A DNA stretch of 64,000 bases from Oscillatoriales cyanobacterium (GTDB taxonomy: Bacteria; Cyanobacteriota; Cyanobacteriia; CACIAM-69d): assembly GCA_004292515.1 (NCBI GenBank), contig RDXB01000032.1:1-64000 (forward strand), in the 5' to 3' direction. This document shows, piece after piece, positions 10,587 to 37,891 of this stretch. The notes under the pieces are model-generated. The model ran no database searches, was not told where the DNA came from, and saw only the letters and a program-made list of their open reading frames with translations. The translations under genes were made by a program, and so were the position numbers. Position 1 is the first letter of the stretch. Each line of letters begins with the position of its first letter.

Positions 10587-11446
10587 TCTCGCAACCGCTG
10601 GGCCGGGCGATCGCTACACAGGCGCTCGGCTCCAACGGCCACCACAATTGCACTGAAGGTGACAGCCAAGGCCGAAGCGAACAACACCACTACCTGCAAG
10701 CTGGCCGCCATCAGGGGATTCAGGCCGCCCAACAGGGCCCCACTCAGCAGTCCTGGCAAACTGAGCAAACCCACACTGGTCAAATTATTCAAGGTGGGGA
10801 CTAGGGCCGATCGAATGGCCTCGCGGCGACAAGGGGCGATCGCCTGGGTGAGGGTCGCGCCCAAACAAAGGCGCTGCTCAATTTCTGGGCGGCGCGATCG
10901 GGCTAACTGCATCATTTGTTCCCCAGCGATCGCCGCCCCGTGACTAGCCGCCGCCAACACCAGCGCAAAAATCGGAACCCAAGCACGCGGATCAAACCAC
11001 ATCTGGGGCCTGAGGGCCACCAACACCACCGGAGTCGCTGAAATCAGCCCCGCGCCCAACAGGGCCAAGCCCAACCAAGGCAGCAAGCCGGGCCAACGCT
11101 GACCCATTTGTTGGTGGGCAGACAGCAGCGCCAGTCCCCACAGGCCAGCCAAGACAACTGCGACGGCGGCGGGCGACGGCCAAACCCAAATTACCGACAG
11201 CAACCAACCCACCGCCGTCAGTTGCAGCAGCGATCGCCCCAGAGCCATGCCCCAAGCCCTTGTTAATCCCAATCCCTGACTCACAGACAGACCGATCGCC
11301 AACGCCCCCAAGCCCAGCGTCCAAGCCAAGTCCAGCGGCTGCAACGCGATCGTCCAATTGGCACTGGTCAGCAGCCCCTGCCACGGCCCTTGATTAATCA
11401 GGGCGATCGCCCCCATCATCAACCCGTCATCCCATCCCCAATCCAT
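10583..11446 (-). CDS. fetB: FetB/UPF0014-family ABC transporter permease
   Basis: About 287 aa with seven or so membrane helices. The family motif region is AASHGAAIAGEQMMQLARS (usually with NA before the TA-like stretch), then CLGATLTQAIAPCRREAIRSALVPTLNNLTSVGLLSLPGLLSGALLGG, which matches the YbbM/FetB signature. FetAB exports iron in E. coli. ATG at 11446 is preferred to TTG 11455, with GGGAG upstream. No ATPase (FetA) lies next to it; the ATPase at 103-1011 is far away and of another type. Convergent with cobH. Confidence 0.86.
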   Translation of the reverse strand: MDWGWDDGLMMGAIALINQGPWQGLLTSANWTIALQPLDLAWTLGLGALAIGLSVSQGLGLTRAWGMALGRSLLQLTAVGWLLSVIWVWPSPAAVAVVLAGLWGLALLSAHQQMGQRWPGLLPWLGLALLGAGLISATPVVLVALRPQMWFDPRAWVPIFALVLAAASHGAAIAGEQMMQLARSRRPEIEQRLCLGATLTQAIAPCRREAIRSALVPTLNNLTSVGLLSLPGLLSGALLGGLNPLMAASLQVVVLFASALAVTFSAIVVAVGAERLCSDRPAQRLRD

Positions 11447-12777
11447 CACGCCCAACTCCCACCCTTACCGTCACTGCCGCTTTGCTGTTGTCCTGTTGCG
11501 TTAACCGATGCTTGAGAGGCGTTGGCGAACCCTTTGAGAGAATGTCTGATCCCAATTTCGTGAATTGACGCTACTCAAGATTCTTGCCTGACAAAATTAC
11601 TGCTGTAATCACTCCTCGTCATTCCCGATCACTCGCTGACGCAACCTAGCAACATCACCCAACCTCAGCTAGACGCAAGCGATCAGCCGTTTATCCTAAT
11701 GCACTGGAACTTTGCGGCTCAATGGCCACCCATACCCGCGATCGCCCCGATTTGGGTGGCAGAATCCATCACTGAACAGGGTTTCAGGTAGGTTTTGAAA
11801 GGCTAGGGAGAGAGCGAGATCAAGCAGGGCAACGGGCGATCGCGATCGCCCCCAAAGCGCGTTACAAATTGCTTCGGACTAACTCGAAACCACAAAAAAC
11901 TTCATAAAACAGCACAGAAATCCGAATGAATTCGCATGATTTTCACAATAATTACAAGCCATTCTGATATCAGTGGCTAGATAGTTGAAGGTCTAAATTA
12001 AAAGTGTAGCAATGACAACTGAGAGTTCAGGAAGTTTTTAGATCAAAAACCCATAAAGGTCATTATCCTAAAGATATTCGATTCAGATCCGAGATACCCA
12101 CCTTCCAAAATGAATTCTAGAATTTGGATGATTTTGGCTTAATTGCCAACTCACAGTTCTAGGCGATCATCGGCGATCATTAATCTCCTAAACCAACAAA
12201 TCACACTTCACTTCTATACAGTGCCTGTAGAGATTGATTCTACTAACAGTTGATTCTAGAGCTTGATGTTATGTCGCCGGGTTGAGTTGTATTTTGCATC
12301 GGGTGTGACCTGAATTGAAGCCAAAACAGTTCAGGTGGTGGCAGATCCTCAAAAATACAATCTCAAAAGACAAGCTCAAAACCCATTCCCAAAAATCACG
12401 ATTTGTGATGGAGCCTGATCAAGATTAATAACTGCTCAATGTTGATTGGTCATTGGTCAGTCATGAATTGGTGATTCACTTCGGTATGATTGCTGGTCTT
12501 GATTGCTGACCTTGATTGGGACTGATGATGGTCACTTGAGTCGCAGCCCAAGTTGCAGCCTGAGTCATAACTTGAGTCGTCACCATTGATGGAGCGATGG
12601 TTGCGATCGATCCAGTCCTCTCCCGTGAACTCGTGATTGCCGATCGCCAATACGCCAACAAATGTTGATCGAGAACGGCTCAAATTTAGATTGATGATCG
12701 GGATGCGACGTTGCTTTTTTTCATGGATGTTGGGAGTTTTCAATTCTGCTCAATCGCTGGCGGTCAGCGCATAGGTT
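11447..12777. other. AT-rich gene-free region upstream of the hybrid kinase
   Basis: About 1.3 kb without a convincing gene. A partial copy of the 5789 element lies at about 11549-11582. From about 11880 the sequence becomes clearly richer in A+T than the flanks and almost free of HIP1 sites, and then shows a degenerate 12-bp array (12534-12581). A 97-codon frame on the minus strand (12450-12743) is low complexity and not credible. It may hold long regulatory sequence, an RNA gene or decayed foreign DNA. Confidence 0.55.
12534..12581. repeat. Degenerate 12-bp tandem repeat
   Basis: Four units follow one another: ACTTGAGTCGCA, GCCCAAGTTGCA, GCCTGAGTCATA and ACTTGAGTCGTC. Confidence 0.6.
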
Positions 12778-15126
12778 ATGAGTCAATTGTTGTTGCAATC
12801 CCTGCAATGGATGCTGACCGCTGATGGCTGTCGGCAGGTTCGATCGCTGCTGTGGCAGGCGGTGTGCGATCGCGCGGTGGAATCGGCTGTGATCGTCACA
12901 GAAACGGATGCCAACATTGATTCCAGTCCATCTGGTCATTGGGGACGACTGCCGTTCTGCCTCATTACCGGCCAGGGAGTAGCTTGGTTGCTCACCGCTC
13001 AGTGTCTTGAAACCTCCACGCCACAAGCACCCCTCCCGCAATCTCTTCGGGGTCGCCAGGGCAGTTGCTCGCGGCGCGGCCGTTGGACAGCGCCACCCGA
13101 TGATCCATCCCTGTTCTACAGCGTTCGGCTTACGAACGATCGGGCTACCATTGCGGAGTTTGCCGCAACCCATGGCCTACACAAGCTGGCGGTAGGCTGG
13201 CAGGCGATCGATGCACAACAGGAGTCGGCAGCTTTGGTAAGCTTGCTGGCTGCCTTGGCGCAACCGGGATCTGTGGTTCAGGAGTGGGAACAACACCAGC
13301 GACAGTTGCGCGATCGTTGTTTGGCAGCCATCACCAGTGCGATCGCCAACGCCCAAGAATTACCAGATATTGTCGATCGCGTCCTGGGGGATCTGTGCAA
13401 ACTGTTGCAGGTTGATCGGGCGGTGATCTATCAGTTTCAAGCCCGCCTGCAATCGATTCGGTTGTGGCGACAGGACAACGCGACGGGGCTACCCAGCAGT
13501 TGGGATGATCCGGCTTGGCAAATGACCAGCGATTGTGTGACCTACGAAGCGCGATCACATCCCCACGTGCCCTCAATTTTGTATGAAGGGGCCGATCGCT
13601 GCTTCTTGCGGCCCGATGATCAGCGGCTGCGGTCTACCCAGTTGGATCCTTGGATTACCACCGACACCAGCCTATCCGGTCAATCCCAGGTGGCCTTGCC
13701 AATTTTGGCCCCGATTGGCGGCGAAGTTGGGCTTTGGGGCTTTTTAGTCCTGCAACAGTGCGATCAGCCCCGAACCTGGTCGGCCAGTGACCTGCAACTG
13801 TTACAGCACATTGCCCGTAGCCTTTCCGTGGCAATTCGAGTTGCTCATCTCAACGCCGCCCTCCAGCAACAACAACAACTGCTGGGACAACAAATTGACA
13901 GCCAAACCCGCGCCCTCCAAGAGGCCCTGCTGGCGGCCCAATCAGCCACCCGCGCCAAGAGCGAATTCCTAGCGGCGATCAGTCACGAGTTACGCACACC
14001 CCTGACCTGTGTGATTGGCTTGTCCGCAACACTGCTGCGTTGGTCCTTTGGGCAGCTCAACCAAAAACAACGCGACTATTTACAAACCATCCATGACAGC
14101 GGCGAACATTTGCTGAAGCTGATTGAAGACCTGCTGGAAATGTCGCAGGTGGAAGCGGGCCGGATGCTGCTGAAGGTGGGGGATTTTTCGATCGCCCAGT
14201 TGGTGCAAACGGCCATCCAAAACGAACGGCACCGGGCGAACCAGCGCGGCGTTGAACTGTTGGTGAAAACCCAAGTCTCCCCACCGGACGATCGCTTCAC
14301 GGCAGACTATCAGCGGGTATTGCAAATTTTGGCCAACCTGCTGGCCAATGCAATTAAGTTCACCCCCCAAGGGGGCCAGGCGATCGTCCGTGTTTGGCGC
14401 GAGCAGGCACTCCTCATCTTGCAGGTAGAAGATACGGGCATTGGTATTCCCGAAGACCGGATTCCTCAACTGTTTGAGATGTTTCACCAGCTCGATCCCT
14501 CCTACGATCGCACCTACGAGGGGCTTGGGTTGGGCTTGGCCCTGACCAAACAACTGGTGGATCTCCATGAGGGTTGGATTGAAGTGGACTCGGCTCCAGG
14601 CAAAGGATCAACCTTCACGGTGGGGATTCCGTCCCAAGCGCTGACGGCTCAGGAGCGACGGTCAACGGCCCCCGACAGTTGGTGGCCATCAGGGGCCGTG
14701 GTGTTGATTGATGCCCAAGAAGATCGGGCGATCGCCCTGTGTGAGCTGTTGACGGCGGCCGGCTATCACGTGGTCTGGATTCCCGATGGCACGATCGCCC
14801 TGGCTCAATTGGACGTGTTGCAACCCCAAGTGGCGATCATCAGCTTCCGGCTGGTGGGGATGGATGGCTGGGAAGTGGTGGATGGTCTGCGCGAGCAGTT
14901 ACCCCACATCCAAGTGATGATGCTGGGAGACAATGCCCTCGACTCGCCGTTACTGCAAATCCATCCAGGATTGAAGGCCGACGCAATTTTGGGTGATCAG
15001 TTTGATCCAGAGCAGTTGTTGTATGAAATTAACGCCCTAGCGCGATCGGCGGCCCTCGGTAGTCATCCCCAAGGGATTCAACCGGGCATCCCGCCAAAAT
15101 CAACCCCCAACTCCACGTTCAATTGA
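12778..15126 (+). CDS. Hybrid sensor histidine kinase: GAF, HisKA, HATPase, pseudo-receiver
   Basis: 782 aa, soluble. An N-terminal region of unclear fold (1-190) precedes a GAF domain (about 190-355; LPDIVDRVLGDLCKLLQVDR) and a short Gln-rich coiled coil (about 360-395). HisKA has H403 in FLAAISHELRTPLT; the ATPase has LLANAIKFTP, VEDTGIGIP and GLGLGLALTK. The C-terminal receiver-like domain (about 640-760) has Ser689 (AIISFRLVGMDG) where the phosphoacceptor Asp should be, and lacks the conserved KP Lys (ILGDQFDP). It therefore cannot accept phosphate normally and may act as a pseudo-receiver. No cognate regulator is adjacent. Ligand of the GAF domain unknown; there is no bilin-type Cys motif. 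Confidence 0.9.
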   Translation: MSQLLLQSLQWMLTADGCRQVRSLLWQAVCDRAVESAVIVTETDANIDSSPSGHWGRLPFCLITGQGVAWLLTAQCLETSTPQAPLPQSLRGRQGSCSRRGRWTAPPDDPSLFYSVRLTNDRATIAEFAATHGLHKLAVGWQAIDAQQESAALVSLLAALAQPGSVVQEWEQHQRQLRDRCLAAITSAIANAQELPDIVDRVLGDLCKLLQVDRAVIYQFQARLQSIRLWRQDNATGLPSSWDDPAWQMTSDCVTYEARSHPHVPSILYEGADRCFLRPDDQRLRSTQLDPWITTDTSLSGQSQVALPILAPIGGEVGLWGFLVLQQCDQPRTWSASDLQLLQHIARSLSVAIRVAHLNAALQQQQQLLGQQIDSQTRALQEALLAAQSATRAKSEFLAAISHELRTPLTCVIGLSATLLRWSFGQLNQKQRDYLQTIHDSGEHLLKLIEDLLEMSQVEAGRMLLKVGDFSIAQLVQTAIQNERHRANQRGVELLVKTQVSPPDDRFTADYQRVLQILANLLANAIKFTPQGGQAIVRVWREQALLILQVEDTGIGIPEDRIPQLFEMFHQLDPSYDRTYEGLGLGLALTKQLVDLHEGWIEVDSAPGKGSTFTVGIPSQALTAQERRSTAPDSWWPSGAVVLIDAQEDRAIALCELLTAAGYHVVWIPDGTIALAQLDVLQPQVAIISFRLVGMDGWEVVDGLREQLPHIQVMMLGDNALDSPLLQIHPGLKADAILGDQFDPEQLLYEINALARSAALGSHPQGIQPGIPPKSTPNSTFN

Positions 15127-29855: not shown

Positions 29856-31766
29856 CTAGGGCATCGCATCCATATTGGGTTGCACCTTGACGCGAATCAG
29901 CAGCGCCGTGATGTTGTCATGGCCATTGTGCTGATTGGCCAGCTCAATCAGTTGGATCACCCCCTGATCCAGGTTGGCCCGGGAGCTGATCAGCGGGGCC
30001 AAGTGGGTTTGCCAGTGGGTTTCGATCAGGTCGTTGTCGCTCAGACCATCAGAGCAGAGCAACAACAACGAGTCTTCATCGAGTTCCAAGAACTGCACAT
30101 CGGGATCAACCCCATTGTTGTCGCGTGGGCCCAACGCTTGGGTCAGTTGGTAAGCATCGGGCCGGCTGTAGGCCGCGTCAGGATCGAGACCCCGTTGAAT
30201 TTCCCGTTGTCCCACTTCGTGATCCGTCGTCACTTGCTCTAGGCCGCGCCGCCGGGTCAGTCGATACAACCGACTGTCACCCACGTGGGCCACGGCGGCT
30301 TTGGAATTGTGGACTAACACCAACACCAGGGTAGTGCCCATGCGGCCGCTACCCGATCGCTGCTCGTCCTGGTTGGCTTCGTAAATGGATTGATTGGCCG
30401 CAAGAATGCCCTCGCGAATCGACGCAGCGGAAGGCATTTCGCCGCCCCAATGGGTTTGGGCGTAGGCTTGCAGGGTTTTGACCGCCAGGTGACTGGCCAC
30501 CTCACCGCTGGCATGGCCGCCCATCCCATCACAAAGGATATACAGGTTGTGCGCCTGAAGCGTTTTGCCGGTCGGTGTTTCGCGCTTGGTTAGCTCCGTG
30601 TAAATGCCAAAGCAATCTTCGTTGTGATCGCGTTGGCGGCCAATATCGGTGCAGCCCGCTTCATCCAGCCCCGAGAGTTTCATCGGCAAGACAACGGTGG
30701 GGGTGTCGTCCACATCGTCGTCATCACGCACCACCAACAACGCCAAGTTGGCGGGATCAGCCGCAATGGGCGGGAGCAAATCCGTGGGCAATCTGCGCTC
30801 AAGGTTGTCGGCGATCGAACGCAGGTGCTGCCGAATTGCGTCGGGGCTGGTGAACTGGCCATCTCCAATTGCCTGTGCCAGGTGAATCAACGGAATGGCA
30901 TCCTCGCGATCGACCACTTCCAGCAACTTGACCCACACTTGCCCTAAATGATTTAGGCTGCTGGCCGTGGTGGGTGTTTCGGGCCCCAATCCGGGGCTGT
31001 AGAGCCGCTTGAGACTGAGCACGCTGTCTTCGTCAACGCATAGGTTGTCGATCGCCAGTAAGCTGGCAGTGCATTGCACCGGGATCAGCTCTTCCCACAG
31101 ATCGAGCATTTCGTAGAGATCGTGCAACACCTGTAGGGTCAGCGTTTCCGGGTCACTCCACAGATCGCAGAGGGATTTCCAGTGCGATCGATCTTCAAGG
31201 AGCAACACTTGCCATTGCTGACTTTGCCAGGTGTCATAAACCTGGGGTAGGCGCTGGCCCAGTTGGGAATCTAGCAACAGGTAGGACTGGGCGATCGCGG
31301 GAATTTGCGAAGCCAAGACTGCATCACTAGGAGGGGAACTCTCCATGAAGTCACCCTCAGGCGGGACGGTAGGCTCGTCATCCCCCAGATCAGATTGGTG
31401 TAGCCAGCTTTCAAAGAAGCGAATGCGGTAGGGGTGGCGATCGAACACTTGAGTGTAGAGCTGACCACAGCGATCGATCACCTGGAGTAATCGCAGGGGT
31501 TGGTAGCGCTGAAACGGATCGCTGATTCCGCCAGTTTCAGCGGCGCTGGCTGTGTCCGTTGGCCAATCCGTCTCACCCGCAGGCGGCACAACCAGGGCTT
31601 GGAGCACCGTGCCGATTAATCCCTCACACTGCGTGCAATGCAGTTGCCCCACGCTGTTTTCAGCACCGCAGTGGGGGCAAAGGAGGCGATCGAGGGACGT
31701 GCCGCACTGCTGACAGTATTTGTTGTCGTCAGGGTTTTCGCACTGGCACTGGGGACAAATCTGCAT
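29856..31766 (-). CDS. Double zinc ribbon / kinase-like / PP2C-type phosphatase
   Basis: About 636 aa. Two zinc ribbons (CPQCQCENPDDNKYCQQCG and CPHCGAENSVGQLHCTQC) are followed by a long region (about 85-370; FQRYQPLRLLQVIDRCGQL, VLLLEDRSHWKSLCDLWSD) that again resembles a degenerate kinase without catalytic motifs. The PP2C domain (about 385-630) has DIGRQRDHNEDCFG, YILCDGMGGHASGE, VAHVGDSRLY, LLCSDGLSDND and GHDNITALLIRV, so metal ligands are intact. No membrane segment. ATG 31766 is chosen. It is a paralogue of the 22628-25042 protein with the same order of parts; substrate unknown. Confidence 0.88.
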   Translation of the reverse strand: MQICPQCQCENPDDNKYCQQCGTSLDRLLCPHCGAENSVGQLHCTQCEGLIGTVLQALVVPPAGETDWPTDTASAAETGGISDPFQRYQPLRLLQVIDRCGQLYTQVFDRHPYRIRFFESWLHQSDLGDDEPTVPPEGDFMESSPPSDAVLASQIPAIAQSYLLLDSQLGQRLPQVYDTWQSQQWQVLLLEDRSHWKSLCDLWSDPETLTLQVLHDLYEMLDLWEELIPVQCTASLLAIDNLCVDEDSVLSLKRLYSPGLGPETPTTASSLNHLGQVWVKLLEVVDREDAIPLIHLAQAIGDGQFTSPDAIRQHLRSIADNLERRLPTDLLPPIAADPANLALLVVRDDDDVDDTPTVVLPMKLSGLDEAGCTDIGRQRDHNEDCFGIYTELTKRETPTGKTLQAHNLYILCDGMGGHASGEVASHLAVKTLQAYAQTHWGGEMPSAASIREGILAANQSIYEANQDEQRSGSGRMGTTLVLVLVHNSKAAVAHVGDSRLYRLTRRRGLEQVTTDHEVGQREIQRGLDPDAAYSRPDAYQLTQALGPRDNNGVDPDVQFLELDEDSLLLLCSDGLSDNDLIETHWQTHLAPLISSRANLDQGVIQLIELANQHNGHDNITALLIRVKVQPNMDAMP

Positions 31767-32283
31767 AGCAGCTACCGTCGGATGTCTCAACATGATCGGG
31801 GTATCCGGCGATTAAGCCGTGAGGAGCAAAACATCGGGCGCAGCAAACGCATGGGGATACCCCTATACCCAATCGGGCGACTTGGGGAAGCAGCCGCGTT
31901 GCAGACCATCGGCGATCGCAGCCACGATCGAAACCGGGGTGGGGGTTGTCCCTACGCACCTTTTTGGATTCTAGCCGACGAGTTTCGAGTCTAGGGGCAA
32001 TCTCGGGGCGTAGATGACTGATCCAGCATCCTAAGTCGAGATCTACCATGCCTTGCGCTGGCGATCATTAAAGTGCCTGCATTTAGATTGCCTAAAATTT
32101 AAATTGCCTAGAATTGCCTAGCGTCATGCCAGGATCGGGGCAGAGTCGGGCGATCGCACCCTGATTGGGCTGGGGCTTGCCGGGTCGTATCTAGGTTTTA
32201 GCTAGGTTTTAGCTAGGTTGTACTGTTCCATCCTTCAGCCATCCAATCCGGGCAATCCCCCTCGGCCGTTATTCCTAGAGATC
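31767..32283. other. Spacer upstream of the PP2C gene with short repeats
   Basis: About 520 bp without a gene. ATTGCCTA-type repeats lie at about 32083-32121 and an 11-bp array at 32191-32220. Confidence 0.6.
32191..32220. repeat. 11-bp tandem repeat
   Basis: CTAGGTTTTAG occurs twice exactly and a third time partly (CTAGGTTG). Confidence 0.8.
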
Positions 32284-33607: not shown

Positions 33608-34450
33608 CTAAGCCAAGGAGGGGGCTTCGGTGGCAGCAGGGCTGAGGGGCGATCGCGGCCGACGGGCCACCTCCACCAACTGGCTAACCCGGTTGGGATC
33701 GATCGGCAAATCGCGTCGGCCACGCCGCTTGAGGGAACTGGCCACAATAACCCCATCGGCCACATCCAGTAGTTGGGAGACGTTATCGTAGTTGGCTCCA
33801 CTACCCACAAAAATTGGCGTGTCGCCCGCCGCTGCCTTGGCTAGTTCCAGATCTTCTACGTTTGGCGGGCTGCCGGTGGCCCAACCAGACAAAATTGCCC
33901 CATCAGCGAGGCCGCGTTCGATTGTGTCCTGCACCGCCACGGTCAAATTGGGCGTGCCGATCGGTCGGGCATGTTTTACCAGTACGTCGGCCAAGATTTT
34001 GACATCGCTGCCCAACTCTCGCCGATAGCGCAGCAGCTCGTGGGCGCGACCTTCGATCAACCCCTGATCGGTGGCCATCACCCCTGACAAAACATTGACC
34101 CGAATGAAATGGGCCCCGGTGCAACTGGCGATCGCCACGGCTGATCGCGCGTCATTGCGCAGAACATTGACCCCGACCGGTAATGTCACCAGATTTTGCA
34201 AATGGTGAACCACCAAGGTCATGGCACTCACCACCGCCGGATCGACTTCATCCTTGGGAAACGGAGCGTCAAAGAAATTTTCGACCAAGATCGCATTTAC
34301 GCCACCCGCAGCGAGGGCAACGGCCTCTTGTTCTGCCCGCTCTACCACGGCTTTGAGGTTTGCTCCCCACCGAGGCGAACTCGGCAGCGGCAGTAAATGA
34401 ACGACTCCGATGATCGGCTTAGGATGTTTAAAAACTTGATCGAGATCCAC
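33608..34450 (-). CDS. btpA: Photosystem I biogenesis protein BtpA
   Basis: About 280 aa. A TIM-barrel of the BtpA/SgcQ family: KPIIGVVHLLPLPSSPRW, NAILVENFFDAPF, GVNVLRNDARSAVAIA, FIRVNVLSGVM and PIFVGSGANYDNVSQLL. BtpA is an extrinsic thylakoid protein needed for stable PSI reaction centres in Synechocystis. GTG 34450 (VDLDQVFKHP) is preferred, with CAGGT about seven bases upstream; an in-frame ATG is at 34501. No operon partner. Confidence 0.93.
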   Translation of the reverse strand: MDLDQVFKHPKPIIGVVHLLPLPSSPRWGANLKAVVERAEQEAVALAAGGVNAILVENFFDAPFPKDEVDPAVVSAMTLVVHHLQNLVTLPVGVNVLRNDARSAVAIASCTGAHFIRVNVLSGVMATDQGLIEGRAHELLRYRRELGSDVKILADVLVKHARPIGTPNLTVAVQDTIERGLADGAILSGWATGSPPNVEDLELAKAAAGDTPIFVGSGANYDNVSQLLDVADGVIVASSLKRRGRRDLPIDPNRVSQLVEVARRPRSPLSPAATEAPSLA

Positions 34451-34591
34451 GCAAAGACCTGAAAACTCAGCGAAACACAGCGGCGTTAGTATCCCACCCA
34501 TTCTATCGAGCTTAGGGATCGCAGACGGTTGAAATTTTGACGCGCCCGTTGCGATCGCTGGTGATGTTGCTAGGTCTGGACTGGGAGCGAT

Positions 34592-35070: not shown

Positions 35071-35564
35071 GATCGAGCAACCAGGCTCGCGAGAACACCG
35101 TGGTCAAAACCAGTCCGCACCCATCTGCATCCGCGTCTATCTACATCCGCTGTCAATCAATCCCATAGCAGCGCCAATCAACAAAAAAATTTGATATAGA
35201 AAGTGGATTTTGCTACAGGAAGTTGATACAGGACAGTTTGCGGGATTCCTAATTTGCTCGCCAGCCCCTAGCCCACGCGCGGGGCAGTTTACCCCATCGT
35301 CTCTATTGCCTTTATCAAGAAACGAGCCATCGCTTTGAAAATCACTGAAAAATGACTAGAATCCCTGGGCGGGGAAGTGGGTGATTTACTTGATCAAAAG
35401 ACGGTGATCAAAAGACAGTGACCTCAAGGTAATAATCGGATTGTTGATTAGAGCGATAAAGCACAAATGCTAAGAAAATATCGTATTAAAAGTTGCAACG
35501 GCATCCAGGTCTTATAAAGTTTTCCAAAAAATTGTGATTTAAGCTGCTATTTTTTCTAACAATA

Positions 35565-35570
35565 TATACT
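35565..35570 (+). promoter_or_regulatory. Possible -10 box of the STAND NTPase gene
   Basis: TATACT about 57 bp before the TTG start, in AT-rich DNA. No clear -35 at 16-18 bp upstream. Confidence 0.25.
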
Positions 35571-35626
35571 GTTCGGGGCGCTACCATGTAGGGCCGTAGG
35601 ATGTTTCGCACAGAGAGATTGGTGAA

Positions 35627-37234
35627 TTGATTCCTCAAGACTTTTTGAGACAAATTGCAAGGGAGCATAGCGTCTCCAATACAGAACTCGACGTTTTGGC
35701 AGCCGCCATCAATGGTGAGCCGATGAACGCGATCGCCCAGCGATTGGGCATCCGCCCCGAAGCCGCCCGTAAGCGGTTGGGTGAGGTGTATAAGAAATTT
35801 CACATCGCTGGGGCTGGGCCGGGCAAGTTAGCGAAACTGCAACAGATCCTGGTGACCCAGTACCAAACACGCCAAGCCCAAGGGCCGATCGTGGCCATGC
35901 CGGTGGTGCAAGAGGTGGAAACCGGTGAGTTGCCTCCGCAGTATGACTGGGGTGACGCGCCCGATGTTTCGGCGTTCTATGGTCGATCGACGGAGCTAGA
36001 ATCCCTTAAAAGCTGGGTCACGGGCGATCACTGCCGGGCCGTGGCCTTGTTGGGGATCGCTGGCAGCGGCAAAACGGCCCTGGCGGTGCGCTTGGCCAAA
36101 GCCCTGGAAGCCGAGGAAGAGTTTGAGTTTATTATTTGGCGATCGCTGCGGCATGGGGTTTCACCGCGTGATGCGATCGGGCGGATGGTGCAAACCCTCT
36201 CGCGCAAGCGCCAAACCTACCTGCCGGAAAGCACCCACAACCGGATCACACTGCTGATCGACTATCTCCGCCAGCATTGCTGCTTGATCGTGCTTGATGG
36301 CGTGGAATCGGTGTTGCGCCAAGGCGACATTTCCGGTCAATATCGCGATGGTTTTGAGGATTACGGCGATTTGTTGCGCCGAATCGGGGAAGAATCACAC
36401 CAAAGCTGCTTGTTGCTAACTAGCGCTGAAAAACCACGTGAGATCGCTCGCCTTGAGGGCAATACATTGCCGGTGCGGGTCTTGCAACTCAGCGGCATGG
36501 GGCCAGAGGAAGCGGGTGAAATTTTCCGCGACAAGGGACTACAAGAGGAGAAGCTTTGGGGGGAATTGGCAGAACTTTATCGCGGCAATCCGCTGACGCT
36601 AAAGATTGCTTCGACGACTATTCAAGAGCTGTTTGGTGGCCGAGTTTCGGAGTTTCTGAAGCAATCAACGTTGGTCTTTGGTGATATCCGCGATTTGTTG
36701 CAGCGCCAGTTCGATCGCCTCTCGGAAATTGAGCGGGCGATTGTTTATTGGTTGGCGATCGAGCAACAAACGATGGCGTTGACCCAACTGCGCGACAAGA
36801 TCTCGATTCCGTTTTCCCAGCCGGAGCTGATCGAAGCTCTGGAGTCCTTGGGACGGCGATCGCTGATTGAGCGTGGTTCCTCGGGTGGAGCTTCCTTTGG
36901 GCTGCAGCCGGTGGTTTTGGAATACATCACCCAAGAGTTTGCCGACTCGGCCTGTGCAGAACTCCAAGACCTGCTGCGAACGCAAAAGATCGATCGCCTC
37001 GACCTGTTCCGGTCCCATGCCCTCACGGCCGAATCGAGTCCTGCGAGCGGCCCCATCTTGAACGATGTCAAAAACCGACTGCGCAAGATGATTCGCAACG
37101 ATCGGCAACTGGAAAGCCAACTGGAAAAAGTTTTGGCGATCCTCGAAGCCAAGTTCCCCTTAGAAGTGGGCTATGCCACCAACAATGTCCAGCAGCTCTT
37201 GGATGCGGTGCGCGTGGATTTGCAAACCGCCTAA
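35627..37234 (+). CDS. STAND-type NTPase with N-terminal HTH, no C-terminal repeats
   Basis: 535 aa from TTG 35627. An N-terminal LuxR/GerE-like HTH (NTELDVLAAAINGEPMNAIA to FHIAGAGPGKLAKLQQ, residues 18-78) leads to an NB-ARC-type NTPase with Walker A GIAGSGKTAL (Lys149), Walker B-like CCLIVLDGVES, LLLTSAEKPREI and the GNPLTLKI helical block, then winged-helix-like SLGRRSLIERG. Closest relatives I know end in WD40 repeats; here the protein stops at QQLLDAVRVDLQTA, where those repeats would begin, and a terminator follows about 340 bp later. A nine-codon upstream frame (35601-35630) overlaps the start. The sensing surface is therefore missing or supplied by another protein. Function not known; defence or regulation are possible. 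Confidence 0.85.
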   Translation: MIPQDFLRQIAREHSVSNTELDVLAAAINGEPMNAIAQRLGIRPEAARKRLGEVYKKFHIAGAGPGKLAKLQQILVTQYQTRQAQGPIVAMPVVQEVETGELPPQYDWGDAPDVSAFYGRSTELESLKSWVTGDHCRAVALLGIAGSGKTALAVRLAKALEAEEEFEFIIWRSLRHGVSPRDAIGRMVQTLSRKRQTYLPESTHNRITLLIDYLRQHCCLIVLDGVESVLRQGDISGQYRDGFEDYGDLLRRIGEESHQSCLLLTSAEKPREIARLEGNTLPVRVLQLSGMGPEEAGEIFRDKGLQEEKLWGELAELYRGNPLTLKIASTTIQELFGGRVSEFLKQSTLVFGDIRDLLQRQFDRLSEIERAIVYWLAIEQQTMALTQLRDKISIPFSQPELIEALESLGRRSLIERGSSGGASFGLQPVVLEYITQEFADSACAELQDLLRTQKIDRLDLFRSHALTAESSPASGPILNDVKNRLRKMIRNDRQLESQLEKVLAILEAKFPLEVGYATNNVQQLLDAVRVDLQTA

Positions 37235-37870
37235 GGAGGTTGGTCGCTGTCAGTTTGTCATGACAGCAATGATCGTAGGGACGACCGGATGATGACCGGA
37301 TGATGACTGCAACACGCTGGGTCATGCCGGTGGCAATTCGCTGGGGCGATCGCCCGGTGAGCACTCTGCCCACCAAGTGGGGCAGGGCACACAACTAACC
37401 AGTCCAACTGATGCCAATGGATGGTGTGATCAACAGCTCCGTGCCCGATCAAATTCCGATCGCGGCGGCTGCGTTGGGCCGGTCGCTTGGTGTGCCCCGA
37501 CGGAGATGCCAAATCGCGCCGGTTCTGCGGGGCTGATGTCCACCGCATTGCACAAGCAGCAGTCATTCAAAGCCAACAGCCCGATCAACGCAACTCGATC
37601 GGGCTGTTTTTTCCGTTTTTTTGAGTCTGGCGGGGCAACTGTTGACGGTCAATTGCCGGTTTTGAACCGAAACCCAACAGCGGGTGACGCGATCGCCCTT
37701 GAGTTGGGGTTCAGCAACCGCTTCTGCGGCTGGGATGCTTGGCCAGTGGCGGGAATTGCTTTGGCTGGAAATTGCTTTAGCTGGAAATTGCTTTAGCTGG
37801 GAATTTCTCCAGCTGGGATTGTTGTAGCCGGAATTGCTTTAGCTGGAAATTGCTTTAGCTGGAAATTGCT
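37235..37870. other. Spacer with terminator and a 16-bp tandem array
   Basis: About 640 bp. A strong plus-strand terminator lies at 37575-37612 and the array at 37751-37891. A 41-codon frame at 37411-37536 has no support. Confidence 0.65.
37575..37612 (+). terminator. Strong intrinsic terminator
   Basis: AACAGCCCGATC and GATCGGGCTGTT form a perfect 12-bp stem with a 10-nt loop, followed by six T. It would end transcription from the STAND gene. Confidence 0.85.
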
Positions 37871-37891
37871 TTAGCCGGGATTGTTGTAGCT
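37751..37891. repeat. 15-16-bp tandem repeat, nine units
   Basis: Units GGAAATTGCTTTAGCT with variants GGGAATTGCTTTGGCT, GGGAATTTCTCCAGCT and GGGATTGTTGTAGCC. The last units overlap the 3' end and stop of the adjacent ferredoxin gene. Confidence 0.92.

Follow-up and report, generated by a model that had tools for sequence, protein, structure and literature searches.

STAND proteins are usually described as single chains that combine an effector, a switch and a sensor. In MalT, a STAND transcription factor of E. coli, the sensor comes after the arm, and a LuxR-type helix-turn-helix (HTH) is located at the C-terminus. CED-4 of C. elegans, a relative of APAF-1 without WD40 repeats, carries a CARD instead of an HTH and is regulated in trans by CED-9. 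PMC10427625 describes MalT as a transcription-controlling STAND that inhibitory proteins, MalY among them, can restrain, and PMC4381067 describes its arm as the connection between the NOD and the sensor. NB-ARC or WD40 accessory domains of cyanobacterial Sigma70_r4 proteins are reported in sections of PMC11119718. The window analyzed here, a stretch of 64,000 nucleotides from an Oscillatoriales cyanobacterium, contains a gene for a protein with an HTH and an NB-ARC-type switch. In the original prediction, which proposed either a lost sensor or a separate one, this protein stops where WD40 repeats should begin.

The gene and its surroundings

The window gene was intact and maintained, and it encoded a sensor-less cyanobacterial STAND switch protein. 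The features of the protein and its locus were as follows.

33611-34501, minus strand: divergent BtpA-family gene, a conserved neighbor within the family only
35400-35626, plus strand: AT-rich upstream region, probable promoter or 5' region
35601-35630, plus strand: nine-codon leader ORF, from ATG (35601) to TGA (35630), overlapping the TTG start and not conserved
35627-37234, plus strand: complete ORF of an HTH-NB-ARC STAND NTPase without WD40, 535 residues, TTG start
35627-35875, plus strand: LuxR/NarL-type HTH, residues 1-83, assigned from predicted helices, VIA-align matches and the lowest dN/dS
35963-36946, plus strand: NB-ARC switch core (NTPase, helical and winged-helix domains), residues 113-440, assigned from Pfam NB-ARC/NACHT and the APAF-1, PH0952 and MalT folds
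36053-36076, plus strand: Walker A GIAGSGKT, residues 143-150, with G143, G146, G148, K149 and T150 invariant in 40/40 homologues
36947-37231, plus strand: C-terminal helical arm, residues 441-535, aligned with the pre-WD40 segment of long relatives and ending just past the LEVGYAxxNxxxLL motif
37575-37612, plus strand: terminator-like hairpin, 12 bp with a T tail, -20.7 kcal/mol, z -5.06

Orthologues of equal length, with 58-85% identity, were found in all five other genomes of the family. The TTG start, which had been considered odd, was not odd for this gene because it was conserved in 6/6 family orthologues, window included. The dN/dS ratios indicated that the window gene is under purifying selection: the whole-gene values ranged from 0.03 to 0.16, with 0.076 for the window gene compared with its Limnothrix orthologue and 0.032 for a pair of other family members. 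The lowest values (0.006 and 0 for these two pairs) were found in the HTH, the most conserved part of the protein. Recent truncation or decay into a pseudogene was rejected and is extremely improbable, with no supporting point found and with the conserved length, start codon and synteny, as well as the low dN/dS of both close pairs, standing against it. NCBIfam and PADLOC searches gave no useful match for the protein.

The region upstream of the gene was indeed AT-rich, with a GC content of 0.38 compared with 0.58 for the window, which ranked among the lowest 0.6% for stretches of 227 bp. One promoter-like site was found upstream, at 35335-35362, which was no more than expected by chance. The nine-codon leader overlapped the TTG start, as had been noted, but it is probably incidental because its ATG was replaced by ATT in two same-genus orthologues and the other three had no such ORF; a conserved leader peptide was rejected accordingly. 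The terminator-like hairpin, which was strong, started about 340 nt past the stop codon, and an imperfect tandem array with a 16-bp unit in about 9 copies (AATTGCTTTAGCTGGA) was located at 37752-37891 in the 3' intergenic region. The divergent BtpA gene was present in 5/5 other family genomes (one cut by a contig end), and the downstream ferredoxin-like, FtsX and peroxiredoxin genes were kept in 3/5. The BtpA adjacency was confined to the family loci and was therefore not used for inferring function. A gene for a double-zinc-ribbon PP2C phosphatase was also found in the window at 29859-31793 (minus strand); in Laspinema and Planktothricoides, relatives of this phosphatase were likewise encoded close to short STANDs, where they adjoined an opposite-strand kinase gene (with an FHA domain in L049).

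Helix-turn-helix, switch core and arm

The Pfam NB-ARC profile (PF00931) matched the window protein with an E-value of 1.9e-10 (40.9 bits; gathering threshold, 23.5), NACHT was also matched, and NB-ARC was found at E 0.01 or better in 40/40 short homologues. The GxxGxGKT residues of Walker A, including the Lys149 singled out in the original prediction, and the acidic Walker B residue D224 were invariant in all 40 aligned short homologues, and with the complete frame they bore out the claim of an intact HTH plus NB-ARC NTPase. An AlphaFold2 model built with an alignment of 40 homologues had a mean pLDDT of 85.6. Its best match among solved folds was the PH0952 STAND (6mfv; Z 25.1, rmsd 4.9, 318 aligned), and it also matched full-length APAF-1 (3sfz; Z 23.8, rmsd 4.7, 345 aligned), with residues 104-535 of the model on residues 112-511 of the chain, and MalT (8bob; Z 22.7, rmsd 4.8, 348 aligned), with MalT residues 6-383 covered. 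The NBD-HD-WHD core was present in the model according to the 3sfz and 6mfv matches. By profile, Walker motifs and predicted core fold, the window protein is an NB-ARC STAND NTPase. No C-terminal WD40 propeller was present, as the chain stopped at the boundary, and the MalT/LAL architecture was not found, with the HTH at the N-terminus and nothing after the arm.

The GerE/LuxR HTH Pfam match of the window protein was weak (residues 15-59, E 0.004, 17.2 bits, below the gathering threshold of 23.5); the GerE profile reached E 0.01 or better in 32/40 short members, and Sigma70_r4_2 was also matched by 13/40. The N-terminal 95 residues were folded separately (pLDDT 74), and the model contained helices at residues 4-13, 18-28, 33-40, 44-57 and 67-83/84. 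VIA-align identified a LuxR-type helical fold in this predicted model, with RcsB as the best match (Z 8.8, rmsd 1.3 over 61) and the DNA-binding domains of NarL, GerE and TraR among the others, while Foldseek alone gave weak E-values, none below 0.05. By the Pfam, fold and HTH-model matches, the protein therefore consists of an HTH, a switch and an arm without a sensor.

Instead of binding DNA, the HTH could be an adaptor for effector recruitment, like the CARD or death-like domains in APAF-1 and CED-4. The closest switch folds included both of these proteins (the CED-4/CED-9 complex 2a5y was among the matches of the window model), and in CARD-NB-ARC proteins the CARD is N-terminal, as the HTH is here. 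However, all of the 50 VIA-align matches listed for the HTH model were LuxR/NarL-type regulators or their DNA-binding domains, and residues R48, R50 and K57 were invariant in 40/40 aligned short homologues, so that an adaptor function appears quite improbable. From the predicted fold, we infer that the HTH of the window protein binds DNA.

The short class and the WD40-bearing forms

The protein ended at about residue 535, as had been stated, and its stop coincided with the onset of the linker and propeller in the WD40 relatives, in which the same LEVGYAxxNxxxLL motif was followed by a DFS linker and the propeller. A comparison of domain lengths revealed a large class of full-length homologues without repeats, a result that had been named beforehand as a refutation. 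Short HTH-NB-ARC frames that ended within about 20 residues past the motif were found at 50 of the 80 loci from named genomes (one of these frames runs off its contig). In the first tree, from which 20 of the 80 loci were left out for a broken frame or a match that did not reach query residue 500, a branch with an SH-aLRT of 100 separated 51 HS rows (the 50 and the window) and L025 from 29 rows, 27 of which were scored as WD40-bearing. In a larger tree of 154 rows, the short forms made up a grade, and all 39 WD40 rows fell inside a 60-row group (support 99, starred), which also held some short rows resembling later losses. With three divergent STANDs as the outgroup, a nested clade of 55 rows (support 99, starred) contained 35 WD40 rows, and the window was outside it.

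No WD40 remnant or restoring frameshift was found above shuffled controls in the sequence after 37234, searched to 38400. The best score was 25.4 bits on the minus strand, within the range of 20 shuffles (20.0-31.6), whereas the positive control scored 523, and the reading of a remnant or a frameshift was rejected. A WD40 ancestor could nevertheless have lost its repeats, which would make the short class an ancient and now stable sensor loss. The position of the window stop at the WD40 linker boundary, the GYAxxN..LL motif common to both forms and the likely secondary losses inside the WD40 clade (e.g., L307/L308, L221, L279, and L289) are consistent with such a history. It is unlikely, however, as the WD40 forms were nested in both the outgroup-rooted and the midpoint-drawn trees and the downstream sequence held no remnant. 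The original suggestion that a sensor has been lost was accordingly not supported, the repeat-less class being large as well. Because the WD40 proteins form a nested clade in the outgroup-rooted tree, the most parsimonious history is one in which the window protein has always lacked repeats, and a single gain of WD40 is likely, although this is not secure because the outgroup branch was long (1.68).

A third class had the same HTH and NB-ARC and a different C-terminus of 209-246 residues, many ending near "ARQRL" (L082, L083, L087, L095-L097, L099, L100, L108, L111, L211, and L216, from Planktothrix and others). At L101, L104 and L107, the frame broke early though the match continued, and these may be pseudogenes or assembly errors. 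At 11078-13312 (plus strand) of L035, roughly 2 kb downstream from the orthologue in G003, lay a gene for a stand-alone WD40 protein whose N-terminus has a membrane-like segment. It was rejected as a family partner because in G005 the flanking genes were directly adjacent without it.

Kinase neighbors, input and known systems

A Ser/Thr kinase gene, mostly with an N-terminal zinc ribbon, was the next gene on the same strand in 20 of 88 short STANDs, compared with 0/36 WD40-bearing and 0/11 third-class loci. The Fisher p-value for short versus WD40-long loci was 0.0008, which overstates independence because the loci are related. Loci entered the count when 700 nt or more of sequence followed the STAND. 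The count of 20/88 excluded the kinase-search loci L247-L276, except two duplicating L210 and L212, and also L300-L302, which were picked because of the kinases already seen there; L277, L278, L284 and L285 were kept, as they were on the homologue list anyway although their kinases had been seen beforehand. Of about 43 rows outside the family that were listed with a frame shorter than 620 aa, 31 were added as short STANDs; most rows containing stops or fragments were omitted. Before merging, the count was 15/50 short loci including L300-L302, and thus 12/47 without them, versus 0/28. At the three other neighbor positions (upstream or on the opposite strand, up to 700 nt away), none of the 94 short, 39 WD40 and 12 third-class loci had a kinase. 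The gap between STAND and kinase was 110 nt or less in 22/27 linked pairs, one being a 4-nt overlap. An adjacent kinase was absent in 68/88 short relatives, including all Microcoleus-type loci inspected, and the linkage label needed 13 changes on the tree.

The catalytic and zinc-binding residues were intact in 10/10 aligned kinases (nine linked and L050). A membrane-like hydrophobic segment followed the kinase domain in 23/27 linked kinases, compared with 13/28 background and 7/28 family kinases. In the domain-scanned subset, the tails of the linked kinases contained CHASE2 (L057 from Microseira wollei NIES-4236, L059, and L105), a WD40 propeller (L210 and L212, the kinase gene within about 30 nt of the STAND), TPR (L053 and L086, the latter below the curated cut-off) or no extra domain (L044 and L046, the latter from Spirulina CCY15215). 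At L050, from Hydrococcus NIES-593, a kinase-WD40 gene was located one gene further on. For even smaller STANDs of 437-465 aa, which also lack the arm (L303-L306, L277, L278, and L284), the next gene was no more than about 45 nt away and encoded a kinase whose membrane-like tail is short. The gene order supports the linked kinase as a separate sensor for the short relatives, and signaling would run from kinase to STAND.

At the window, no Ser/Thr kinase was found within 6 kb of the gene, and none was directly downstream on the same strand at the window or family loci; the window genome had 14 kinase matches elsewhere. In a tree with part of the family's kinases, 25/28 family rows were outside the linked-kinase clade (support 94, not starred), and the other three were long-branch rows without the zinc-ribbon signature. 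The family kinase-WD40 proteins L229, L234, L237 and L198 were outside this clade and were rejected as orthologues of the linked kinases. L044 and L046, two Spirulina-type loci with the STAND-kinase pair, grouped with the window family in the first tree but not in later trees. The proposal that the protein works with a separate sensor was therefore supported for relatives, several of whose kinases bear sensors, and not for the window family, because the window locus has no kinase and most family kinases fall outside the linked clade. The window protein appears to be an orphan because the partner kinase gene is absent from the family locus, and it is best read as an orphaned but maintained form that would receive its input in trans. 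Alternatively, the NTPase core and arm might detect a nucleotide or small ligand on their own and need no sensor partner, in keeping with a family without a linked partner, the conservation of the entire core and a window genome without a second close family member. The kinase pairing in many relatives suggests that input in trans is common, and direct sensing is rather doubtful.

The explanation we favor, at slightly better than even chances, is an intact nucleotide-switched transcription regulator with a LuxR-type HTH, an APAF-1/MalT-like core and an arm, an orphan from a sensor-less grade ancestral to the WD40 fusions. ADP would keep the NB-ARC core in its closed state and ATP in its open state. 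In analogy to MalT and APAF-1, the arm would keep the ADP-bound switch shut until an input opens it, upon which ATP would bind and the protein would assemble, gathering the HTHs on DNA. Since the window protein belongs to the sensor-less grade, this input would either arrive in trans or act through the arm and the NTPase. In the relatives, the likely trans partner would be the next-gene kinase, with a cytoplasmic kinase domain, usually a zinc ribbon, mostly a membrane-like segment thereafter and, where found, a CHASE2, WD40 or TPR sensor. The WD40-fused STANDs would derive from this grade by gaining the propeller. A more specific proposal, which is less likely than not, is a cyanobacterial two-gene system in which a membrane receptor kinase with an exchangeable sensor controls the sensor-less HTH-STAND, with WD40-fused STANDs arising later as the propeller was fused and the kinase dropped. 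The kinase would combine a zinc ribbon, a Ser/Thr kinase domain, usually a membrane segment and a CHASE2, WD40 or TPR sensor, and the window would then contain an orphan of the system.

In mostly open-access literature, including parts of PMC11119718, PMC7159879, PMC2176072 and PMC10907252, no description of a short STAND and Ser/Thr kinase pair in cyanobacteria was found, and as far as this literature goes, the sensor-less class with kinase pairing may be an undescribed form of STAND signaling. A conserved chain that ends before the sensor, followed in many lineages by the gene for an often sensor-bearing kinase, would allow the trans drive of a STAND switch to be tested, and the same group would allow testing how sensors move between proteins. 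The short STANDs also provide a group of Ser/Thr kinases in cyanobacteria with a concrete candidate target.

Among known systems, CED-4 is similar to the window protein in its NB-ARC fold, its size and its lack of a repeat sensor, whereas a CED-4-like caspase partner has no support in the window data. The Sigma70_r4 and NB-ARC proteins in the sections of PMC11119718 have an HTH joined to NB-ARC, as in the window protein; those sections give domain co-occurrence only and no sensor-less class or kinase pairing. The WD40-carrying NB-ARC STANDs of cyanobacteria, which are about 1200 residues long, share the core, winged helix and arm up to GYAxxN..LL and, in some, the same HTH, but they continue into the linker and propeller and had no adjacent downstream kinase at any of 36 loci. 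Compared with MalT, the window protein has its HTH at the N-terminus and lacks the sensor, but both are STANDs with a similar switch and arm fold.
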